From NCBI RefSeq assembly GCF_021028995.1, contig NZ_JAJJZG010000001.1, positions 310,001 to 374,000 on the forward strand: a stretch of DNA of 64,000 bases, written 5' to 3'. The notes beneath the pieces were generated by a model. It searched no databases. It saw only the letters and a program-made list of their open reading frames with translations, and was not told the DNA's origin. This document shows, in pieces, positions 68 to 24,014 of this stretch (position 1 is its first letter; each line of letters begins with the position of its first letter). The position numbers and the translations under genes are program-made. The stretch comes from Halobacterium sp. KA-4. GTDB taxonomy: Archaea; Halobacteriota; Halobacteria; Halobacteriales; Halobacteriaceae.

Positions 68-1300
68 ATGAAACGAACAGCGACCGCTGCACTGCTGACG
101 GTGTTGGTCGTCGCGAGCGCCGGAACGACGGCTGCCGCGGCAGCAGCGACCAGTACGCAGGGTAGTGGCGCAGTGTCAGAGGCACAGAGTGGGTCGGCGT
201 ACGCCGGAACGCACGTGCAGTTCGACGTCCGGCAGAACGCCGTGGCGAACTACCGCGTCGGCGGGGACACCGCCCTCGACAGCGTGAAGGTCCAGTCCGA
301 GTCCGCCACCGACGGCGGCATCGGCGTGGACGTCGGTGTCGACCTCTCGGCGGTGACGAGCATCGCCGGGAGCGCGCTCTCGATGCAGACGAGCGCGAAC
401 GCCCAGGCCGAAATCGCCGCCGAAGGGTCGGCGTCGATGACCGCCCACGACAACGACCACGGCATCCTCGTCGTGGAAGCGGGCGGCAACAACCAGGTGG
501 TCGTGGCGAACGTCTCCGAGGGAGCCACGGCCGAGAGCGAGTCGGACAGCCAGGTCGAGGTGACGACAGCGAACGGCACCCAGGGGACGTTCGTGGTCGT
601 CGGGAACGGCTCCGTGACCGTCAACGAGGATGGCGACGTCTCCGCGCGGCTCGAAAGCGACTCGCGGCTCGTGTTCCGCGCGTACCCCGAGGAGAAGTCC
701 AGCGAGGACGAGCAGACCGAGGAGTACATCGCGTCCGGGACGGCGACCGGCGAGGTGTACGTCGAACAGCAGGACGGCGAGATGGTGACTGACACGGTGA
801 CGTACAGCCAGCAGACGGCTATCGCAGCCGAGCAGGCTGCCGAGGACACCGTTCGCGTGACGGTCAACCGCACCCGCGAGCGCGGGAAAATCGTCGTCAC
901 GAGCGTCAGTGAGGCCGCAGTAGGGACCGTCTCGAACATCGACGTGACGGTGGACGGCGAGGCTGCCGTCGAAGCGTCCTCCTACAGCGAAGTTGAGGGC
1001 GCAATCGGCGGCGACACCTCGCGGTACATGGTGAAGCAGTCGTCGAGTGCGTCGTCGAAGGCGAAGGTGTACGTCGCGCTCAACCACTTCTCGAAGCGCA
1101 CCATCGAGATGACGGGGAGCGAGACCACCGAGACGACGCAGGGCACGACGAGTGAGACGACGACCGCCGAGACGACGGCCGCAGACACCACCGAGTCCGG
1201 TGGCGACGGCGGCGAAACCGGCGGCGGCGCGCCCGGGTTCGGCCTCGGCACCGCTCTGGTCGCCGTGCTCGGTGCGGCGCTGTACGCGCTCCGGCAGTAG
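68..1300 (+). CDS. Secreted PGF-CTERM-anchored surface protein
   Basis: A 410-residue exported protein. Residues 1 to about 27 form a signal peptide with a Lys-Arg start and a long Ala/Leu/Val core. The body is acidic, beta-rich and repetitive, with many Val/Thr/Ser positions. A Thr/Glu-rich linker (about 350-380) looks suited to O-glycosylation. The protein ends in the tripartite PGF-CTERM signal: GAPGFG near residue 388, a hydrophobic helix and a final basic Arg-Gln. Archaeosortase A cleaves such tails and attaches the protein to lipid; artA lies in this window at 42.6 kb. I recall unnamed haloarchaeal homologues with the same layout, but no function is known. Start chosen at the ATG preceding the signal peptide. 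Confidence 0.85.
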   Translation: MKRTATAALLTVLVVASAGTTAAAAAATSTQGSGAVSEAQSGSAYAGTHVQFDVRQNAVANYRVGGDTALDSVKVQSESATDGGIGVDVGVDLSAVTSIAGSALSMQTSANAQAEIAAEGSASMTAHDNDHGILVVEAGGNNQVVVANVSEGATAESESDSQVEVTTANGTQGTFVVVGNGSVTVNEDGDVSARLESDSRLVFRAYPEEKSSEDEQTEEYIASGTATGEVYVEQQDGEMVTDTVTYSQQTAIAAEQAAEDTVRVTVNRTRERGKIVVTSVSEAAVGTVSNIDVTVDGEAAVEASSYSEVEGAIGGDTSRYMVKQSSSASSKAKVYVALNHFSKRTIEMTGSETTETTQGTTSETTTAETTAADTTESGGDGGETGGGAPGFGLGTALVAVLGAALYALRQ

Positions 1301-1400: not shown

Positions 1401-2789
1401 ATGACGCGACCGCACGTAGTCGTCGTCGGAGCGTACGGGAGCGCGGGCGTCGCGGCCGCCGAAGTGTTGGCCGAGGCGGACGTGGAACTGACACTCGTCG
1501 ACGACGGCGAACCCGGCGGCGGGCTCTGCATCCTCCGCGGCTGCATGCCCTCGAAGGAGGTGCTGTCGGCAGCCGCGCACCGCTATCAGGCCCGGGACGA
1601 CGACCGGTTGGTCGGGGACGTCCCCGACGTGGATCTGAGCGCAGTGGTCGAGCGAAAGGATGACAACGTGCTCGGGTACGCCGAGCACCGCCGGGGCGCG
1701 GTCCACGACCTCGCGGAGCGCGAGAACGTCACCTTCCACCACGAAACCGCCGACTTCGTCGACGACCGCACGCTGGACGTGGGTGGCGAGCGCATCGAGG
1801 CTGACTACGTCGTGCTCGCGACCGGGTCGACGCTGAACGTCCCAGACCTCCCGGGCATCGACGACGTGGACTGGATGGGCAGCAGGGACGTGCTCGATGC
1901 GACCGAGTTTCCGGACTCCGGGGTGGTGATGGGGTTCGGCTACGTCGGCCTCGAACTCGTCCCGTACCTCACGGAGGCCGCGGGGATGGACATCACCGTC
2001 GTCGAGCACGACGACCGGCCGCTGGACGACTACCACCCGTCGTTCGGCGAGGAACTACTGGATATGTACCGCGAGGAGTTCGGCGTCGAGATTCGCACGG
2101 AGGTCCGCGAGGAGCGCGTCGAGGCGACGCCGGACGGCGGCGCGCGCGTCCACCTCGACGACGGCTCCGTCGCCGAGGGCGACCAGTTGTTCCTGTTCAC
2201 GGGCCGCGAGCCCTCGTTCCCCGACGACATGGAGAGAACCGCGCTCTCCCCGGAGCCGGGCTGGGTCGGGGACACGATGCAGGCGGCGGACGACGACCGC
2301 GTGTTCGTCGTCGGCGACGCCGTCGGCGACCGCATGCTCCTACACACGGCCAAAGAGGAGGGCTACCTCGCGGGCCGGAACGTCGTCCACCGCGAGGCCA
2401 GCGAGCCGCTGGAGGAGTACGACCCGCTCCCGCACAAGGTGATGTTCTCGGGCGCGGGCGTCTACCCGTTCGCGTCGCTCGGGCTGACGACCGAGCAGGC
2501 GCGCGAGGAAGGCCACGAGGTCGTGACCGCGCAGCGCGACGCCAGCGACGACGGCGTGTTCAAGGCGAAGGTGGCGTCGCGTGGGACGGCGCGATTAGTC
2601 GTCGATGCCGACGACGGCACCGTGCTCGGCTACCACGGCCTCCACTACGACGCGGACGCGATGGCGAAAACGATGCAAGTGATTCTAGAGGGAGAGATGG
2701 ACGTCCGAGAACTTCCGGACCGTGCGTACCATCCGACGACGCCCGAAATCCTGGACGGGCTGTTCCGCGAGACCGCCGCGCAGTTGTAG
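1401..2789 (+). CDS. NAD(P)/FAD-dependent pyridine nucleotide-disulfide oxidoreductase (dihydrolipoyl dehydrogenase-like)
   Basis: A 462-residue flavoprotein of the dihydrolipoamide dehydrogenase/mercuric reductase family. The N-terminal FAD fold has GAYGSAG near residue 10 and the redox-active pair Cys43/Cys48 in CILRGCMPSK. A central NAD-binding domain has GFGYVGLE, a second FAD motif reads VFVVGDAVGD, and the C-terminal dimerisation domain carries the catalytic-type His-Pro (YHPTTPE). All key residues of an active disulfide reductase are present. It is not beside 2-oxoacid dehydrogenase genes, so the substrate is open: dihydrolipoamide, a thiol such as bis-gamma-glutamylcystine, or another disulfide. 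The ATG at 1401 is chosen because the Rossmann fold starts directly after it. In-frame sequence upstream belongs to a different reading context. Confidence 0.85.
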   Translation: MTRPHVVVVGAYGSAGVAAAEVLAEADVELTLVDDGEPGGGLCILRGCMPSKEVLSAAAHRYQARDDDRLVGDVPDVDLSAVVERKDDNVLGYAEHRRGAVHDLAERENVTFHHETADFVDDRTLDVGGERIEADYVVLATGSTLNVPDLPGIDDVDWMGSRDVLDATEFPDSGVVMGFGYVGLELVPYLTEAAGMDITVVEHDDRPLDDYHPSFGEELLDMYREEFGVEIRTEVREERVEATPDGGARVHLDDGSVAEGDQLFLFTGREPSFPDDMERTALSPEPGWVGDTMQAADDDRVFVVGDAVGDRMLLHTAKEEGYLAGRNVVHREASEPLEEYDPLPHKVMFSGAGVYPFASLGLTTEQAREEGHEVVTAQRDASDDGVFKAKVASRGTARLVVDADDGTVLGYHGLHYDADAMAKTMQVILEGEMDVRELPDRAYHPTTPEILDGLFRETAAQL

Positions 2790-3194
2790 TTAGTCGGGGC
2801 GCAGCCACGCGGTGTCGTACTCGCCGAGCACGCTGTCGACGGCGCTGGCGAGGTCCTCGAAGCGGTCCGTCGGCAGGCGGTCGGTGGTGACGAACGCGCC
2901 GTGGTAGCCGTGGATGACGCGCGTGAGGTAGCCGTGCTCGAACGCGCGGATGGTGAATTGGTAGTCGCCGAGTTCGGTGTCCTCGTAGATGCGCTTGGAC
3001 TTGAAGCCGCTGCGCTCCTCGTTGGCGAACCCGACGATGTTCGCGCCGGGTTCGAGGTCGTCGCGGAGGTATATCTGTTCCTCGTTGGTGGTGTCGAAGT
3101 ACGTGATGCTGCGGAGGCGGTCGCCGACGGTGGTCCGGCAGACGCTGACGAGTTCGTCCGCGAACGCCTCGTCGAGGTTGCTATCGTTTCCCAT
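2790..3194 (-). CDS. Haloarchaeal small protein, DUF7522-like (paralogue of the gene at 23.6 kb)
   Basis: A 134-residue soluble acidic protein with no signal or membrane segment. A ITYFDTTNEE strand pair, an alternating beta meander and a C-terminal helix resemble the second copy at 23619-24014 (VSYFDENGVG at the same place), so the two look like distant paralogues. I believe this family is annotated as DUF7522, but I am not certain of the number. It is transcribed divergently from the salactin gene across about 100 bases, and its stop touches the stop of the upstream flavoprotein gene. The ATG at 3194 is chosen; the longer frame runs across the salactin promoter. Confidence 0.6.
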   Translation of the reverse strand: MGNDSNLDEAFADELVSVCRTTVGDRLRSITYFDTTNEEQIYLRDDLEPGANIVGFANEERSGFKSKRIYEDTELGDYQFTIRAFEHGYLTRVIHGYHGAFVTTDRLPTDRFEDLASAVDSVLGEYDTAWLRPD

Positions 3195-3265
3195 ACTGGT
3201 CCTGCGGAGAGCGCCAGCAAAAAACCACGGGCGCGCTACGGGGAACCGGGAGCACCGCCTACAAG

Positions 3266-3275
3266 AGTTATACGC
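3266..3275 (+). promoter_or_regulatory. TATA box of salactin, leaderless start
   Basis: GAGTTATACG is centred 27 bases before the ATG at 3297. This is the archaeal TATA spacing that places transcription start at the A of ATG, and it decides the start of the actin homologue against the much longer open frame upstream. Confidence 0.65.
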
Positions 3276-3296
3276 GCTCCGTTGGAACGGCGTCAC

Positions 3297-4361
3297 ATGT
3301 CCGACTCAGAGAGCAGCGACGGCGAGTTCGACGAGCAACCGGCCGCTCTCGGGGTGAAAGTCGGGAGCACGCGCACGGTCGTCTCCGCGGGCGACGCCGA
3401 CGACCCGAACGTTCTCCGCACGCTGACGTGTCTCGCCACCTACGAGGACGCGCTCACCGGCGAGGAGCACGTCCTCTACGGCGAGGAAGCCGCGACCGAG
3501 TACCCCGACCGCGTGCGCTACATGCTCCGGTCCGGGCTGCCCGAGGACGAGGAGACGACAGACCTCGCGAAGACGTTCCTCGAGGAGTTCGCACGCTCGA
3601 ACGGCCTCCCCGAGGACTCGGTCGTGGTGTACGCCATCCCCACCATCGACAACGAGATCGGGCTGGAGCGCCTCTCCGAAATCATCGAGGACGGCCCCCT
3701 CGGCGAGCGGCTGGTCCGGTCGTACCCCGAGTCGCTGTGCGGCGCGGTGCCCGCGCTCGGCGACGACCTCGAAGCCATCGAGGAGACGTTCGTCGCCGTC
3801 AACATGGGCTCGACGAACCTCGAAGCGTGCGCGTACCGCCGCGGCGAGCAGCTCGCGCCGTTCTCGACGGGCGCCATCACAGGTACCGAGGTCGACCGCC
3901 GCATCGCGAACTACGTCGAGGAGGAGACGCAGGGCCGCGTGAACATCGACCTCACGACCGCCCGCGAGTACAAGGAGGAGCACGCGGACTTCCTGAACTA
4001 CGAGCCGTTCAGCGACATCATCCAGCAGCCCGGCGGCGGCACCTACGAATTCACCATCGAGCACAGCGTGATGGACGCCGTCGACGAGTACGTCGACGAC
4101 GCGGTCGACGAGGTCGCGAACGTCTTCATGCCGGAACTCGCCAACGACTACATGAAAATCTACCAGCAGGCCCTCGACAACCCGGTCGTGCTCACGGGCG
4201 GGATGGCCTGTATCCCGGACGTCGTCGCCGAATTCGAGGAACGCCTGAGCGAGGAACTCGAACGCGACGTCGAGGTGACGACCGCCGACGACCCGGCGAC
4301 GGCGGCCGCGCGCGGCGCCCACCGCATCGCCGACCGGCTCGTGGAACTGAACGAGTACTGA
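3297..4361 (+). CDS. Actin/ParM-superfamily protein, probable salactin
   Basis: A 354-residue actin-fold ATPase. The phosphate-1 loop is LGVKVGSTRTVV near the N terminus, the phosphate-2 loop is VNMGSTNLEA around residue 168, and the adenosine motif is VVLTGGMACIP around residue 300. Length and motif order fit the filament-forming archaeal and plasmid actins (ParM/Alp type) rather than Hsp70. Halobacterium salinarum salactin is a dynamically unstable actin homologue reported to help DNA inheritance under phosphate limitation. I recall its locus as VNG_0153C, a short distance from the histone gene hpyA, as here. The first 20 residues are an acidic disordered tail. The gene stands alone, with a hydrolase gene following on its own promoter. 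Confidence 0.8.
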   Translation: MSDSESSDGEFDEQPAALGVKVGSTRTVVSAGDADDPNVLRTLTCLATYEDALTGEEHVLYGEEAATEYPDRVRYMLRSGLPEDEETTDLAKTFLEEFARSNGLPEDSVVVYAIPTIDNEIGLERLSEIIEDGPLGERLVRSYPESLCGAVPALGDDLEAIEETFVAVNMGSTNLEACAYRRGEQLAPFSTGAITGTEVDRRIANYVEEETQGRVNIDLTTAREYKEEHADFLNYEPFSDIIQQPGGGTYEFTIEHSVMDAVDEYVDDAVDEVANVFMPELANDYMKIYQQALDNPVVLTGGMACIPDVVAEFEERLSEELERDVEVTTADDPATAAARGAHRIADRLVELNEY

Positions 4362-4405: not shown

Positions 4406-5290
4406 ATGGTCCCCGACCTGCGCGACGACGTCCCGACCGAAGAGGTACAGTTTCCCGACGGTCGCACGCTGGCGTACGCGGAGTACGGCGACCCCGACGG
4501 CACGCCCGTGTTCTTCTGTCACGGCACGCCGGGGTCCCGAATCTCCGGGCAGCTCGGCCGCGACGCGAAAGCCGAGGTCGGCGCGCGCGTAATCGCACCC
4601 GACCGCCCGGGCTTCGGCGCGTCCGACCGCCAGCCCGGCAGGACGTTCGCGGATTGGGCCGCGGACGTGGCGGCACTCGCGGACGAACTCGGCATCGAGG
4701 AGTACGCCGTCGTCGGCTTTTCCGGGGGTGGGCCGTACGCGCTGGCGTGTGCCGCACACAATCCAGAGCGCGTGACTCGCTGCGCGGTCGTCTCGGGGGT
4801 CGGGCCGCCGGGGTCCGCGCGCGGCGACCTCGGGTTCGAGCGCGCGCTGGCGTCCGCGTCGCGGGTGTCGCCGCAGTTCGGCCGGCCGCTCGTCTGGCTG
4901 ATGGCGCGCGCCGTCGCGAGCGCGGACTCGTTCACTGACGTCGTCGGCGAACCCGACACGGACCTCGCGGACCCGCGGCGCGGCGAGAGCGGGCGCGTGC
5001 TACTGGCGGACTTTCGCGAGGGGCTGAGCCAGGGAACGACGCCGCTGGCGACCGACTACAGCGTGCTCTACGGCGCGTGGGACTTCGACCTCGCGGACGT
5101 CGCAGTGCCGACGCGCGTATTCCACGGGGAGAGCGACGCCAACGTCCCGGTCGCGGCGGGCGAAGGCGTCGCCAGCGAGGTGCCGAACGCCGACCTCACG
5201 GTCTACGAGGACGCCGGCCACTTCCGGCCAATCGTCGAGGAGGCACGCGACATCTTCGGCTGGGCAGTCGGGCGCGAGGAGAGCAAGTAG
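4406..5290 (+). CDS. Alpha/beta hydrolase
   Basis: A 294-residue cytoplasmic alpha/beta-hydrolase fold enzyme. It has an oxyanion HGTPGS motif near residue 35, the nucleophile elbow GFSGGGP with Ser at about 106, an acidic residue in HGESDANVP and the catalytic His in DAGHFRP near 272. The triad is complete. The substrate cannot be told from sequence; family members cleave esters, epoxides, haloalkanes or peroxides. A T-rich box (TTTTTCT) lies about 30 bases before the ATG, so it probably has its own promoter, 44 bases after salactin. Confidence 0.85.
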   Translation: MVPDLRDDVPTEEVQFPDGRTLAYAEYGDPDGTPVFFCHGTPGSRISGQLGRDAKAEVGARVIAPDRPGFGASDRQPGRTFADWAADVAALADELGIEEYAVVGFSGGGPYALACAAHNPERVTRCAVVSGVGPPGSARGDLGFERALASASRVSPQFGRPLVWLMARAVASADSFTDVVGEPDTDLADPRRGESGRVLLADFREGLSQGTTPLATDYSVLYGAWDFDLADVAVPTRVFHGESDANVPVAAGEGVASEVPNADLTVYEDAGHFRPIVEEARDIFGWAVGREESK

Positions 5291-5300
5291 CGAGTAGGCG

Positions 5301-6116
5301 TTACGACGGGACGGTGCAGCCTTCGACGTACTCGACGTCCGCGACGGAGTCGATGGCGGGGTCGTCGCCGCAGACCGGGCAGTCGGGATTCTTCGCGACC
5401 GGTACCGTCTCGAAGGACATGTCGCCGGCGTCGTAGAACAGCAGGCGGCCGGTGAGGCGCTCGCCGTAGTCGAGCAGGCCCTTCACGCACTCGGTGGCCT
5501 GAATGCAGCCCATCGTCCCGGGGAGGATGCCGAGCACGCCCGCGGTCGCGCAGTCGGGAATCGTTCCTTCTGGTGGGGCTTCCGGGAACAGGCAGCGGTA
5601 GCAGGCGTTTCCGGGTTCGTACGTGATTGCCTGGCCCTCGAAGCGGTAGATGGCGGCGTGGCTGAACGGAATCTCGCGGAGCACGCAGGCGTCGTTGACG
5701 AGGTAGCGCGTCGCGAAGTTGTCCGAACAGTCCACCACGTAGTCGACGCCGTCGAGGAACTCGCCGACGTTCGACTGGTCGAGGCGCGTGACGTGCGCGT
5801 CGACGTCCACGTCGGGGTTGAGGTCCTCGACGTACTCGCGGGCGCTCTCGGCCTTCGGGCGGCCGACGTCGGCGTCCGCGTGGATGATTTGGCGCTGGAG
5901 GTTCGAGCGCTCGACGTCGTCGTGGTCGACGATGCGGAGCCGGCCGACGCCCGCGGCCGCGAGGTACTGGATGACCGGCGCGCCCAGACCGCCCGCACCC
6001 ACCACGAGCACGTCGCCGTCGAGCAGGCGCTTCTGGCCCTCGGCGCCGACGTCGTCCATGATGATGTGTCGCGAGTAGCGGTCGAGCTGCACCGGGTCGA
6101 GATTCAGCCCGGACAT
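5301..6116 (-). CDS. ubaA: SAMP-activating E1-like enzyme UbaA (MoeB/ThiF family)
   Basis: A 271-residue E1-like adenylyltransferase. The nucleotide-binding glycine motif is VVGAGGLGAP near 38-46, the adenylation-site arginine lies in RSNLQRQ near residue 70, the active-site Cys is about 189 (IPDCATAG) and two zinc-binding pairs are CYRC (172/175) and CPVC near 245. In Haloferax, UbaA activates the ubiquitin-like SAMP proteins for protein conjugation and for sulfur transfer to molybdopterin and tRNA thiolation; length and cysteine spacing match that enzyme. No SAMP gene is adjacent. The ATG at 6116 is preferred over longer in-frame starts because the N-terminal E1 helix begins directly after it. 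It converges on the hydrolase gene with 10 bases between stops. Confidence 0.9.
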   Translation of the reverse strand: MSGLNLDPVQLDRYSRHIIMDDVGAEGQKRLLDGDVLVVGAGGLGAPVIQYLAAAGVGRLRIVDHDDVERSNLQRQIIHADADVGRPKAESAREYVEDLNPDVDVDAHVTRLDQSNVGEFLDGVDYVVDCSDNFATRYLVNDACVLREIPFSHAAIYRFEGQAITYEPGNACYRCLFPEAPPEGTIPDCATAGVLGILPGTMGCIQATECVKGLLDYGERLTGRLLFYDAGDMSFETVPVAKNPDCPVCGDDPAIDSVADVEYVEGCTVPS

Positions 6117-10687: not shown

Positions 10688-11695
10688 TCAGAGCGCGGGG
10701 TGGGAGGCGCGGATGTCGTCGAGCAAGTCGCGGACGGCATCGCTGACCTCGTCGTCGGGACCGACGGGTTCGCGGCCGTCGAACGTCTCGTGGACCATGC
10801 CGATGCCGTCCGCGAGCGTGTCGAGGCTGTAGCCGCCTTCCAGAATGAACGCCAGCGCCGCGTCCGTCGCGTCGGCGAGCGTCCGGACGCGGTCGGCGAG
10901 CAGGCCGTAGCCTTCCGTAGTGACGTGCATCCGCGAGATTGGGTCGTGGCGGTGGGCGTCGAAGCCCGCGCTCACGAGGAAGACGTCCGGGTCGAACTCG
11001 GCGAGTGCGGGTTCGAGCAGTTCGTCGAACGCCGCACAGAAGTCGGCGTCCCCGGAGCCCGCGGGGAACGGCGCGTTCAGCGTCGAGCCGACGCCGTCGC
11101 CCTCGCCGTACTCGTCGGCGTCACCAGTCCCCGGGTAGAGGCCGTCCTCGTGCACGGACGCGTAGAAGACGTCGCTGCGGTCGTAGAAGATGTCCTGCGT
11201 GCCGTTGCCGTGGTGGACGTCCCAGTCGAAGATGGCGACGCGGTCCGCGTCGAGGTCGTCAAGGGCGTACTGAGCGGCGACGGCAGCGTTGTTCAGGAAA
11301 CAGAAGCCCATCGCGTCGTCGAAGACCGCATGGTGGCCCGGCGGCCGGCCGAGCGCGAACGGCGTGTTCCGGCCGTCGGCGCCGTTCACCGCTGCGCGCG
11401 TGGCATCCTTCGCGAGGCCCGCGCTAGCGAGCGCGGCCGGCCACGTCTCCTCGGAGGCGGTCGTGTCGGGGTCCCAGTCGCCGCCGCCGGACTCGCAGAA
11501 GTCGCGAATCTCGTCGACATAGTCGGGGTCGTGGACCGCCGCGACGTCGGCTTCGGTGGCTGGCGTGGCGCCCTCGTAGGTGACGCTGTGGCGCTTGGCG
11601 AGCCCGCGCTTGATGGCGCGCAGTCGGTCCGGGCTCTCGGGGTGGCGTGGGCCCGGGTCGTGTGCGAGACACGTCTCGCTGAACCCGAATCTCAT
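10688..11695 (-). CDS. Histone deacetylase family protein (acetoin utilisation/class II HDAC type)
   Basis: A 335-residue zinc-dependent deacetylase fold. The catalytic tandem His pair is His121-His122 (PPGHHA), zinc ligands lie in DWDVHHGNG (Asp159, His161) and AGFDAHRHDP, and the transition-state aromatic/glycine motif is EGGYS. All catalytic residues are kept. It begins four bases inside the end of the histone gene, so the two are translated from one message. Substrates in haloarchaea are unproven: acetyl-lysine on proteins, acetylpolyamines and acetoin-related compounds are all possible. Co-transcription with a histone makes chromatin-protein deacetylation an attractive but untested idea. 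Confidence 0.9.
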   Translation of the reverse strand: MRFGFSETCLAHDPGPRHPESPDRLRAIKRGLAKRHSVTYEGATPATEADVAAVHDPDYVDEIRDFCESGGGDWDPDTTASEETWPAALASAGLAKDATRAAVNGADGRNTPFALGRPPGHHAVFDDAMGFCFLNNAAVAAQYALDDLDADRVAIFDWDVHHGNGTQDIFYDRSDVFYASVHEDGLYPGTGDADEYGEGDGVGSTLNAPFPAGSGDADFCAAFDELLEPALAEFDPDVFLVSAGFDAHRHDPISRMHVTTEGYGLLADRVRTLADATDAALAFILEGGYSLDTLADGIGMVHETFDGREPVGPDDEVSDAVRDLLDDIRASHPAL

Positions 11696-12123
11696 TCCAC
11701 GAGGTCGAAGTACGTCTGGACGTCCTCGGCCTGTACGGTGCGTCGGCCCGCGTGCTCAGCGAGTACGGCGGCGCCCTCCGCGGCGTCCGAGGCGAACGAC
11801 TCCAAGAGGTCCGCAAGCGCGACCCGGGCGTCCTTGGAGACGCGGAACCGGTCGTCGAGATCAAGGCGCGCGATGCGGTCGACCGGCGCGACCGGCAGCG
11901 TGAGTTCGTCGGCGTCGGGCACCTCGTCGACGCCGAAGTCCGCCGCCATCAGGGTCTTTCGGCCGTCCGCGGCCGCGCGTTCGGCGGCGTCCTGCGCGAG
12001 CGATGCGCCGCGGCGCTGGATGCGCCGTGCGAGTTCCTCGGCCGCGTCAGCGCTCACCCGCAAGTCACCCGCGTGCCGCCGGATGATGGTGTCGACCGGC
12101 GCGAACGGGAGTTCGACGCTCAT
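11692..12123 (-). CDS. hpyA: Doublet (two-fold) archaeal histone
   Basis: A 143-residue protein made of two tandem histone folds in one chain. The first runs about 1-68 (LPFAPVDTIIRRHAG start) and the second about 72-143 (LPVAPVDRIARLD start). Each has the helix-strand-helix pattern with R-VS-DA at the loop. This end-to-end fused, acidic histone is typical of haloarchaea. HpyA of Halobacterium acts more like a specific regulator (iron and salt responses) than a bulk packager. A TTAAC box is centred 27 bases upstream of the ATG (leaderless). It overlaps the deacetylase gene by four bases. Confidence 0.92.
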   Translation of the reverse strand: MSVELPFAPVDTIIRRHAGDLRVSADAAEELARRIQRRGASLAQDAAERAAADGRKTLMAADFGVDEVPDADELTLPVAPVDRIARLDLDDRFRVSKDARVALADLLESFASDAAEGAAVLAEHAGRRTVQAEDVQTYFDLVE

Positions 12124-23618: not shown

Positions 23619-24014
23619 CTACTCCACTGCCGGCCGCTCGAACGCCGATTCGTCGACGACGCCCTCGGCGACGTGAATCGCTTCGCGGAGGTCGTAGTTC
23701 GCGTCGCGGTCGAGCGCGAACGCGATGCCGCTGGACTGCGAGATGGGGAGCGCGACATCGAGCATGTCCTCGTAGACGCGGACGGTCGCGTGCAGGGATT
23801 GGTCTTGGCGGGCTTCCAGCGAGCCGTAGCCGAGCGCTTCGAGTTGGATGTCGCGGACAACTTCGTCGACTTGCTCGGGGTCGTACTTCTCCCCAGCCCA
23901 CTCGCTCCGGAAGACGTGGCCGACGCCGTTCTCGTCGAAGTAGCTGACGCCGATGAGCCCACCCGGGAGTTCCGCCTGTAGCGCGTCGCGGACCTGTGCG
24001 GCCAGTTGCTCCAT
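23619..24014 (-). CDS. Haloarchaeal small protein, DUF7522-like (paralogue of the gene at 2.8 kb)
   Basis: A 131-residue soluble acidic protein. GVSYFDENGVGHVF and the later beta pair SLHATVRVYEDML line up with ITYFDTTNEEQIYL and YQFTIRAFEHGYL of the protein at 2790-3194. Both have a C-terminal helix of similar length. No function is known; the family number DUF7522 is from memory. It is transcribed away from tRNA-Phe and faces the propeller gene. Confidence 0.6.
   Translation of the reverse strand: MEQLAAQVRDALQAELPGGLIGVSYFDENGVGHVFRSEWAGEKYDPEQVDEVVRDIQLEALGYGSLEARQDQSLHATVRVYEDMLDVALPISQSSGIAFALDRDANYDLREAIHVAEGVVDESAFERPAVE

Follow-up and report, generated by a model that had tools for sequence, protein, structure and literature searches.

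The segment 3195-4361 of the window (the whole stretch of Halobacterium sp. KA-4 DNA that was analysed, 64,000 nucleotides) consists of a 102-bp intergenic region (3195-3296) followed by one intact open reading frame (3297-4361, forward strand). The first-pass annotation had assigned the entire segment to a salactin-type actin filament protein, of which the intact actin ORF stood, but its start lies at 3297 and the stretch 3195-3296 is noncoding. The following features were identified at and around this locus:

68..1300, forward strand: secreted-type protein with a YAGTHV motif, second locus marker (ORF; tblastn).
1401..2789, forward strand: FAD/NAD pyridine nucleotide-disulphide oxidoreductase, locus marker (PF07992, 145 bits; synteny).
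2790..3194, reverse strand: DUF7522 gene, 134 aa, divergent neighbour (PF24366, 167 bits).
3261..3273, forward strand: promoter-like box ACAAGAGTTATAC; a similar box precedes salactin in other Halobacterium.
3297..4361, forward strand: salactin gene, actin-fold filament ATPase, 354 aa (PF25229, NF053533, AF2 model).
4406..5290, forward strand: alpha/beta hydrolase, 3' of salactin (PF00561, 82 bits).
5301..6116, reverse strand: ThiF/E1-like gene, conserved locus marker (PF00899, 278 bits).
11692..12123, reverse strand: archaeal histone with a double histone fold (PF00808, 92 bits, two stretches).

In profile searches, the protein encoded at 3297-4361 scored 595.7 bits against Pfam Salactin (PF25229, cut-off 27.1) and 576.9 bits against the NCBIfam salactin equivalog (NF053533, cut-off 400), and it proved to be a full-length homologue of Halobacterium salinarum salactin (VNG0153C) with 83% identity. 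The actin-fold motifs read earlier from the sequence were recovered as three nucleotide motifs (GVKVGSTRT at residue 19, NMGSTNLE at residue 169 and TGGMA at residue 300), the columns of which are almost invariant in the salactin alignment. An AF2 model built with 28 homologues (pLDDT 88, pTM 0.86) displayed an actin-type fold, with MreB/Mbl and MamK as best PDB matches (TM about 0.7-0.8, 15-21% identity) ahead of DnaK and actin, a ranking already published for H. salinarum salactin (PMC10746226). Together, the Pfam and NCBIfam scores and the fold matches settle that the window gene is salactin and an ordinary member of this known family. That it would instead be a relative of volactin, MreB or Hsp70 can practically be dismissed, since next to a weak MreB_Mbl match (34.6 bits) and the closeness of the solved MreB and Mbl folds, the salactin profiles score more than 500 bits above all others, with Volactin (PF25216) at 27.5 bits under its cut-off of 35, NCBIfam mreB at 23 bits (cut-off 366) and the MamK model likewise far under its cut-off, and DnaK models at only ~11 bits. 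Volactin itself (HVO_2015 of Haloferax volcanii) is likewise a haloarchaeal actin-fold filament protein, but forms a separate family.

Ahead of the actin fold, both H. salinarum salactin and the window protein carry an acidic N-terminal tail, which in the latter (residues 1-11, MSDSESSDGEFDEQ; pLDDT <50) is charged, predicted to be disordered, and shorter than in several relatives. The salactin of the metagenome-assembled genome QS_8_69_26 (G027; L100:7405-8604, L204) is extended at its N-terminus by about 45 residues (NLDDLTYSELRQLATQYEEVDG...).

Within the intergenic region, the TTATAC of the promoter-like box is centred about 26.5 bp upstream of the salactin ATG, a position that would fit a leaderless haloarchaeal transcript. 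The box (ACAAGAGTTATA) recurs, with changes, ahead of salactin elsewhere in the genus; its presence in H. salinarum, too, where the locus lacks DUF7522, indicates that it belongs to salactin. A histone gene was indeed present in the vicinity, as had been claimed, and lies 7.3 kb downstream of salactin.

The first-pass annotation had further pointed to the small divergent gene at 2790-3194 as a possible player in filament function, whose pairing with salactin was to be checked across Halobacterium. The gene itself was confirmed as a DUF7522 member, its stop abutting the stop of the convergent FAD oxidoreductase gene, and it adjoins salactin in 8 of the 9 salactin-bearing Halobacterium species. 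The exception is H. salinarum (G006), which shares the MutL-PfkB-FAD neighbourhood with the window but has salactin directly after the FAD gene, and in whose genome DUF7522 matches are weak and distant (best 35 bits). Conversely, four salactin-less Halobacterium species (G001, G005, G010 and G011) retain DUF7522 beside the same flanking genes. One of these, G011, is a very close relative (~93% identical to the window at the DNA level) in which the equivalent of 3252-4309 is missing (L094), leaving the last 50 bp of salactin as a scar next to the alpha/beta hydrolase gene on its right-hand flank; this is a natural clean salactin deletion. Outside the genus, DUF7522 is common in genomes without salactin, and no linkage of the two was found there, salactin genomes either lacking DUF7522 or carrying it elsewhere. 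These observations contradict the proposed role, so that DUF7522 is a neighbour rather than an obligate partner of salactin; as a general requirement the partnership is refuted, and any partnership with the filament is hardly credible despite the adjacency in most Halobacterium species. The claim that the gene has a paralogue within the window (23619-24014, reverse strand) did not hold either, being rejected at the sequence level (BLASTP E = 0.43) and at the profile level (hhalign probability 1.4%, with a thin profile of 7 sequences). The latter gene encodes an acidic protein of 131 aa that contains a GVSYFDENG motif and bears a superficial likeness to DUF7522, and matched neither DUF7522 at E <= 1 nor any Pfam family at E <= 0.05.

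While DUF7522 drops out as a lead, clustering of the genes surrounding salactin in about 40 loci revealed that one other gene family adjoins salactin across haloarchaeal families. Its members are 150-180 aa long, share an N-terminal NPxDYDxxELR motif and carry the Arch_fla_DE domain (PF04659; seven examples scored 52-102 bits), which is the domain of the archaellum switch component ArlD/FlaD. We then considered an order-wide sample of 243 genomes, 80 with salactin (71 of them outside Halobacterium) and 163 without. In 57 of the 71 genomes and, by our own count from the tables, in 19 of the 23 genera outside Halobacterium, the gene directly upstream of salactin was of ArlD type and shared its strand. 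Counted by locus, this was the case for 66 of 76 named loci (not including one further locus with too little flank), with examples in Haloarcula, Halomicrobium, Halorubrum, Halobaculum, Halobellus, Haloferax larsenii and Haloferax elongans. The spacing from arlD stop to salactin start ranges upward from -4 bp (a 4-bp overlap, in Halorubrum), and the two genes are probably co-transcribed where adjacent. A genome carries roughly 3,300 genes, about two of them with a DE domain, which makes chance adjacency negligible; the estimate treats genomes as independent, which within one lineage they are not. Across the sample, a DE-domain match was present in 79/80 salactin genomes versus 95/163 genomes without salactin (Fisher p 1.2e-13, uncorrected for kinship). 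G027, whose assembly is 86% complete, is alone among the salactin genomes in lacking an ArlD-type match.

Other arrangements were encountered as well, with the DE-domain gene being convergent in G170 and divergent in G211. Haloferax mucosum carries two salactins, one with a DE-domain gene upstream of it and the other with a separate one downstream. In G182, two salactins are embedded in a cheY-cheC-cheD-arlCE-arlF-arlG-salactin-arlCE-arlH-salactin-arlCE-arlH-arlI-arlJ cluster (arlH, arlI and arlJ named by eye from the sequence). At 6 loci, in Halobellus, Halogeometricum and two species of Haloferax, the pair comes after cheY-cheC-cheD and has archaellin genes next to it, and in Haloarculaceae divergent ParA and CheW genes face the arlD-salactin pair (about 27 loci). 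Salactin without adjacent arlD was found in Halobacterium, in genus g5 and in G027. In a tree of DE-domain proteins, the salactin-linked members are spread over several lineages, indicating that they are not all the same ArlD. We found no earlier report of the arlD-salactin link in the open-access literature, it is absent from the salactin paper, and searchable papers yielded no earlier tie of ArlD/FlaD to an actin; the linkage is apparently unreported, and it is where the value of this analysis lies. The salactin paper reported poor synteny even inside Halobacterium, leaving the neighbourhood uninformative (PMC10746226); at the scale of the order the neighbourhood is informative, with salactin travelling with arlD and chemotaxis genes.

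No ArlD gene is present in the window. In this genome, the linked gene has its closest homologue in the arlD of the archaellum operon, beside arlCE (G000:C1:57388-57852), with the Halobacterium archaellum-operon homologue scoring 94.5 bits against Arch_fla_DE. A full-length ArlD match was obtained in 13/13 Halobacterium genomes, in six of which the archaellum-operon context was read. The retention of ArlD in the four salactin-less Halobacterium species argues that ArlD does not require salactin. In genomes of family f17, which has no salactin in the sample, arlD follows the PfkB-YAGTHV-FAD gene string, and in one of these (G041) it comes after the full MutL-PfkB-YAGTHV-FAD string found ahead of salactin in Halobacterium. 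Homologues of both upstream window markers thus flank arlD in f17 genomes, the YAGTHV protein being a marker common to their arlD locus (tblastn 43-44% in L135, L136 and L140). Halobacteriaceae ArlD clusters in the DE tree with that of f17 and with the salactin-linked ArlD of Haloferax and Halobellus (support 89/96). The simplest reading, we infer, is that arlD and salactin once shared an ancestral locus, with salactin later lost in f17 and arlD relocated in Halobacterium. The Halobacterium pair would then have been split, with arlD in the archaellum operon, salactin left at the relic locus, and several species losing salactin altogether.

Salactin homologues in other groups of the phylum are 36-45% identical. 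No DE-domain genes were detected beside them in 18 loci, within the stretches read, which leaves no support for DE-domain linkage being ancient across the whole salactin family. In 11 of 14 non-haloarchaeal loci outside family f25 (f21, f41 and others), the salactin gene lies close to genes for a coiled-coil protein and for a MinD/ParA ATPase. Loci L228-L236, L238 and L240 display this as a conserved row of salactin, coiled-coil protein (with a WDxLFEEL motif) and MinD/ParA, and some such loci also contain T2SSE/T2SSF type-IV-filament assembly genes. The gene following salactin in family f25 encodes an archaeal prepilin peptidase in L226 (Pfam) and a protein of similar appearance in L224. Taken together, the neighbourhoods in and beyond haloarchaea point to three kinds of recurrent companion: a small protein resembling an adaptor, an ATPase of the ParA/MinD type, and machinery for surface filaments.

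In H. salinarum, the only species for which filament dynamics and a DNA-partition role have been published, salactin forms dynamically unstable filaments that extend from foci at the poles and retract again, and it helps to partition DNA when ploidy is low; a salactin deletion upsets DNA distribution under low phosphate while leaving motility unchanged (PMC10746226). The linkage described above names a concrete candidate for what anchors the filaments at the poles, or for what they carry as cargo. FlaD (ArlD)-GFP is polar in H. volcanii and FlaD is needed for archaellation (PMC6509185), while CheF docks on ArlCDE (PMC9126983). Our leading reading, to which we give roughly even odds, is that the natural partner of salactin is ArlD, as part of the polar archaellum switch complex, rather than DUF7522, and that the two act jointly at the pole. 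Salactin filaments might be anchored or nucleated at the archaellated pole by ArlD (or by a DE-domain paralogue) or, alternatively, might carry it as cargo, so that polar motor and filament system would be placed and inherited together. This presumes physical contact and functional coupling of the two proteins, which we infer. The normal motility of the salactin deletion would in turn imply that ArlD serves salactin and not the reverse, or that the effect concerns placement. This motility, the persistence of ArlD without salactin, the salactins without adjacent arlD, the DE-free non-haloarchaeal loci and the spread of the salactin-linked DE proteins over several lineages all speak against coupling. 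A comparable arrangement is known from the ParM plasmid segregation system (ParM, adaptor and DNA site), which likewise combines dynamic instability with a small gene beside the actin gene, although the small partner gene of salactin is of archaellum type rather than a known DNA-binding adaptor.

Alternatively, salactin could be a purely chromosome-partitioning filament, with the arlD linkage reflecting shared expression or old gene order without any coupling. The low-phosphate DNA-partition phenotype and the normal motility of the deletion (PMC10746226) agree with this, as do the ParA/MinD-type ATPases near salactin in Haloarculaceae and non-haloarchaeal relatives, the histone gene near the window salactin and the mismatch-repair genes nearby in relatives. 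However, the adjacency outlasts rearrangement, occurring upstream, downstream, convergent, divergent and within archaellum clusters, and each of the two Haloferax mucosum salactins lies beside a DE-domain gene of its own. We regard this alternative as a serious one but somewhat doubtful. The partnership of ArlD and salactin at the pole might also extend further, with both forming one polar apparatus in which the switch protein anchors or nucleates the filament and in which inheritance of the motor and chemosensory pole is coupled to chromosome partitioning. We advance this wider version only tentatively and consider it less likely than not; if true, Halobacterium salactin would represent the version whose partner gene moved away.

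It seems improbable, finally, that salactin mainly places or passes on the archaellum and chemosensory pole, with the DNA phenotype being secondary. The companions ArlD, CheW, CheY, CheC, CheD and the archaellins, and the prepilin peptidase adjoining salactin in an f25 genome, would fit such a role, but the H. salinarum deletion has no motility defect (PMC10746226), its low-phosphate phenotype concerns DNA distribution, and DE-domain archaellum genes occur without salactin in the above-mentioned 95 of 163 genomes. For distinguishing among these readings, the arlD-salactin pair is available in Haloarcula, Haloferax larsenii and Halorubrum, and the salactin-less Halobacterium species provide natural loss strains, G011 being a ready-made one.

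The survey also brought up a number of other actins. Mutual exclusion of salactin and volactin turned out not to be general, as many genomes harbour both, and the Haloferax volcanii control genome, with matches for Salactin and Volactin, appears to be among them. About 25 genomes, mostly from family f8, contain besides an ordinary volactin a second volactin-type match in a very long open frame. The three of these that were read, in f8 (L241:3777-6857 in G192, L242:982-4329 in G210 and L243:3307-5991 in G153), encode proteins of ~900-1,200 aa. Each has a volactin-type actin domain at its N-terminus (324-326 bits on partial reads), followed by a very long coiled coil and by a hydrophobic, glycine-rich C-terminus resembling a membrane anchor. 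They look like membrane-tethered actin/coiled-coil fusions, for which a literature search returned no earlier report. Actinarchaeum halophilum (G226; L201, L212), in turn, has four salactin genes, the most of any sampled genome, one of which is apparently broken or partial, while full copies are located on two replicons.
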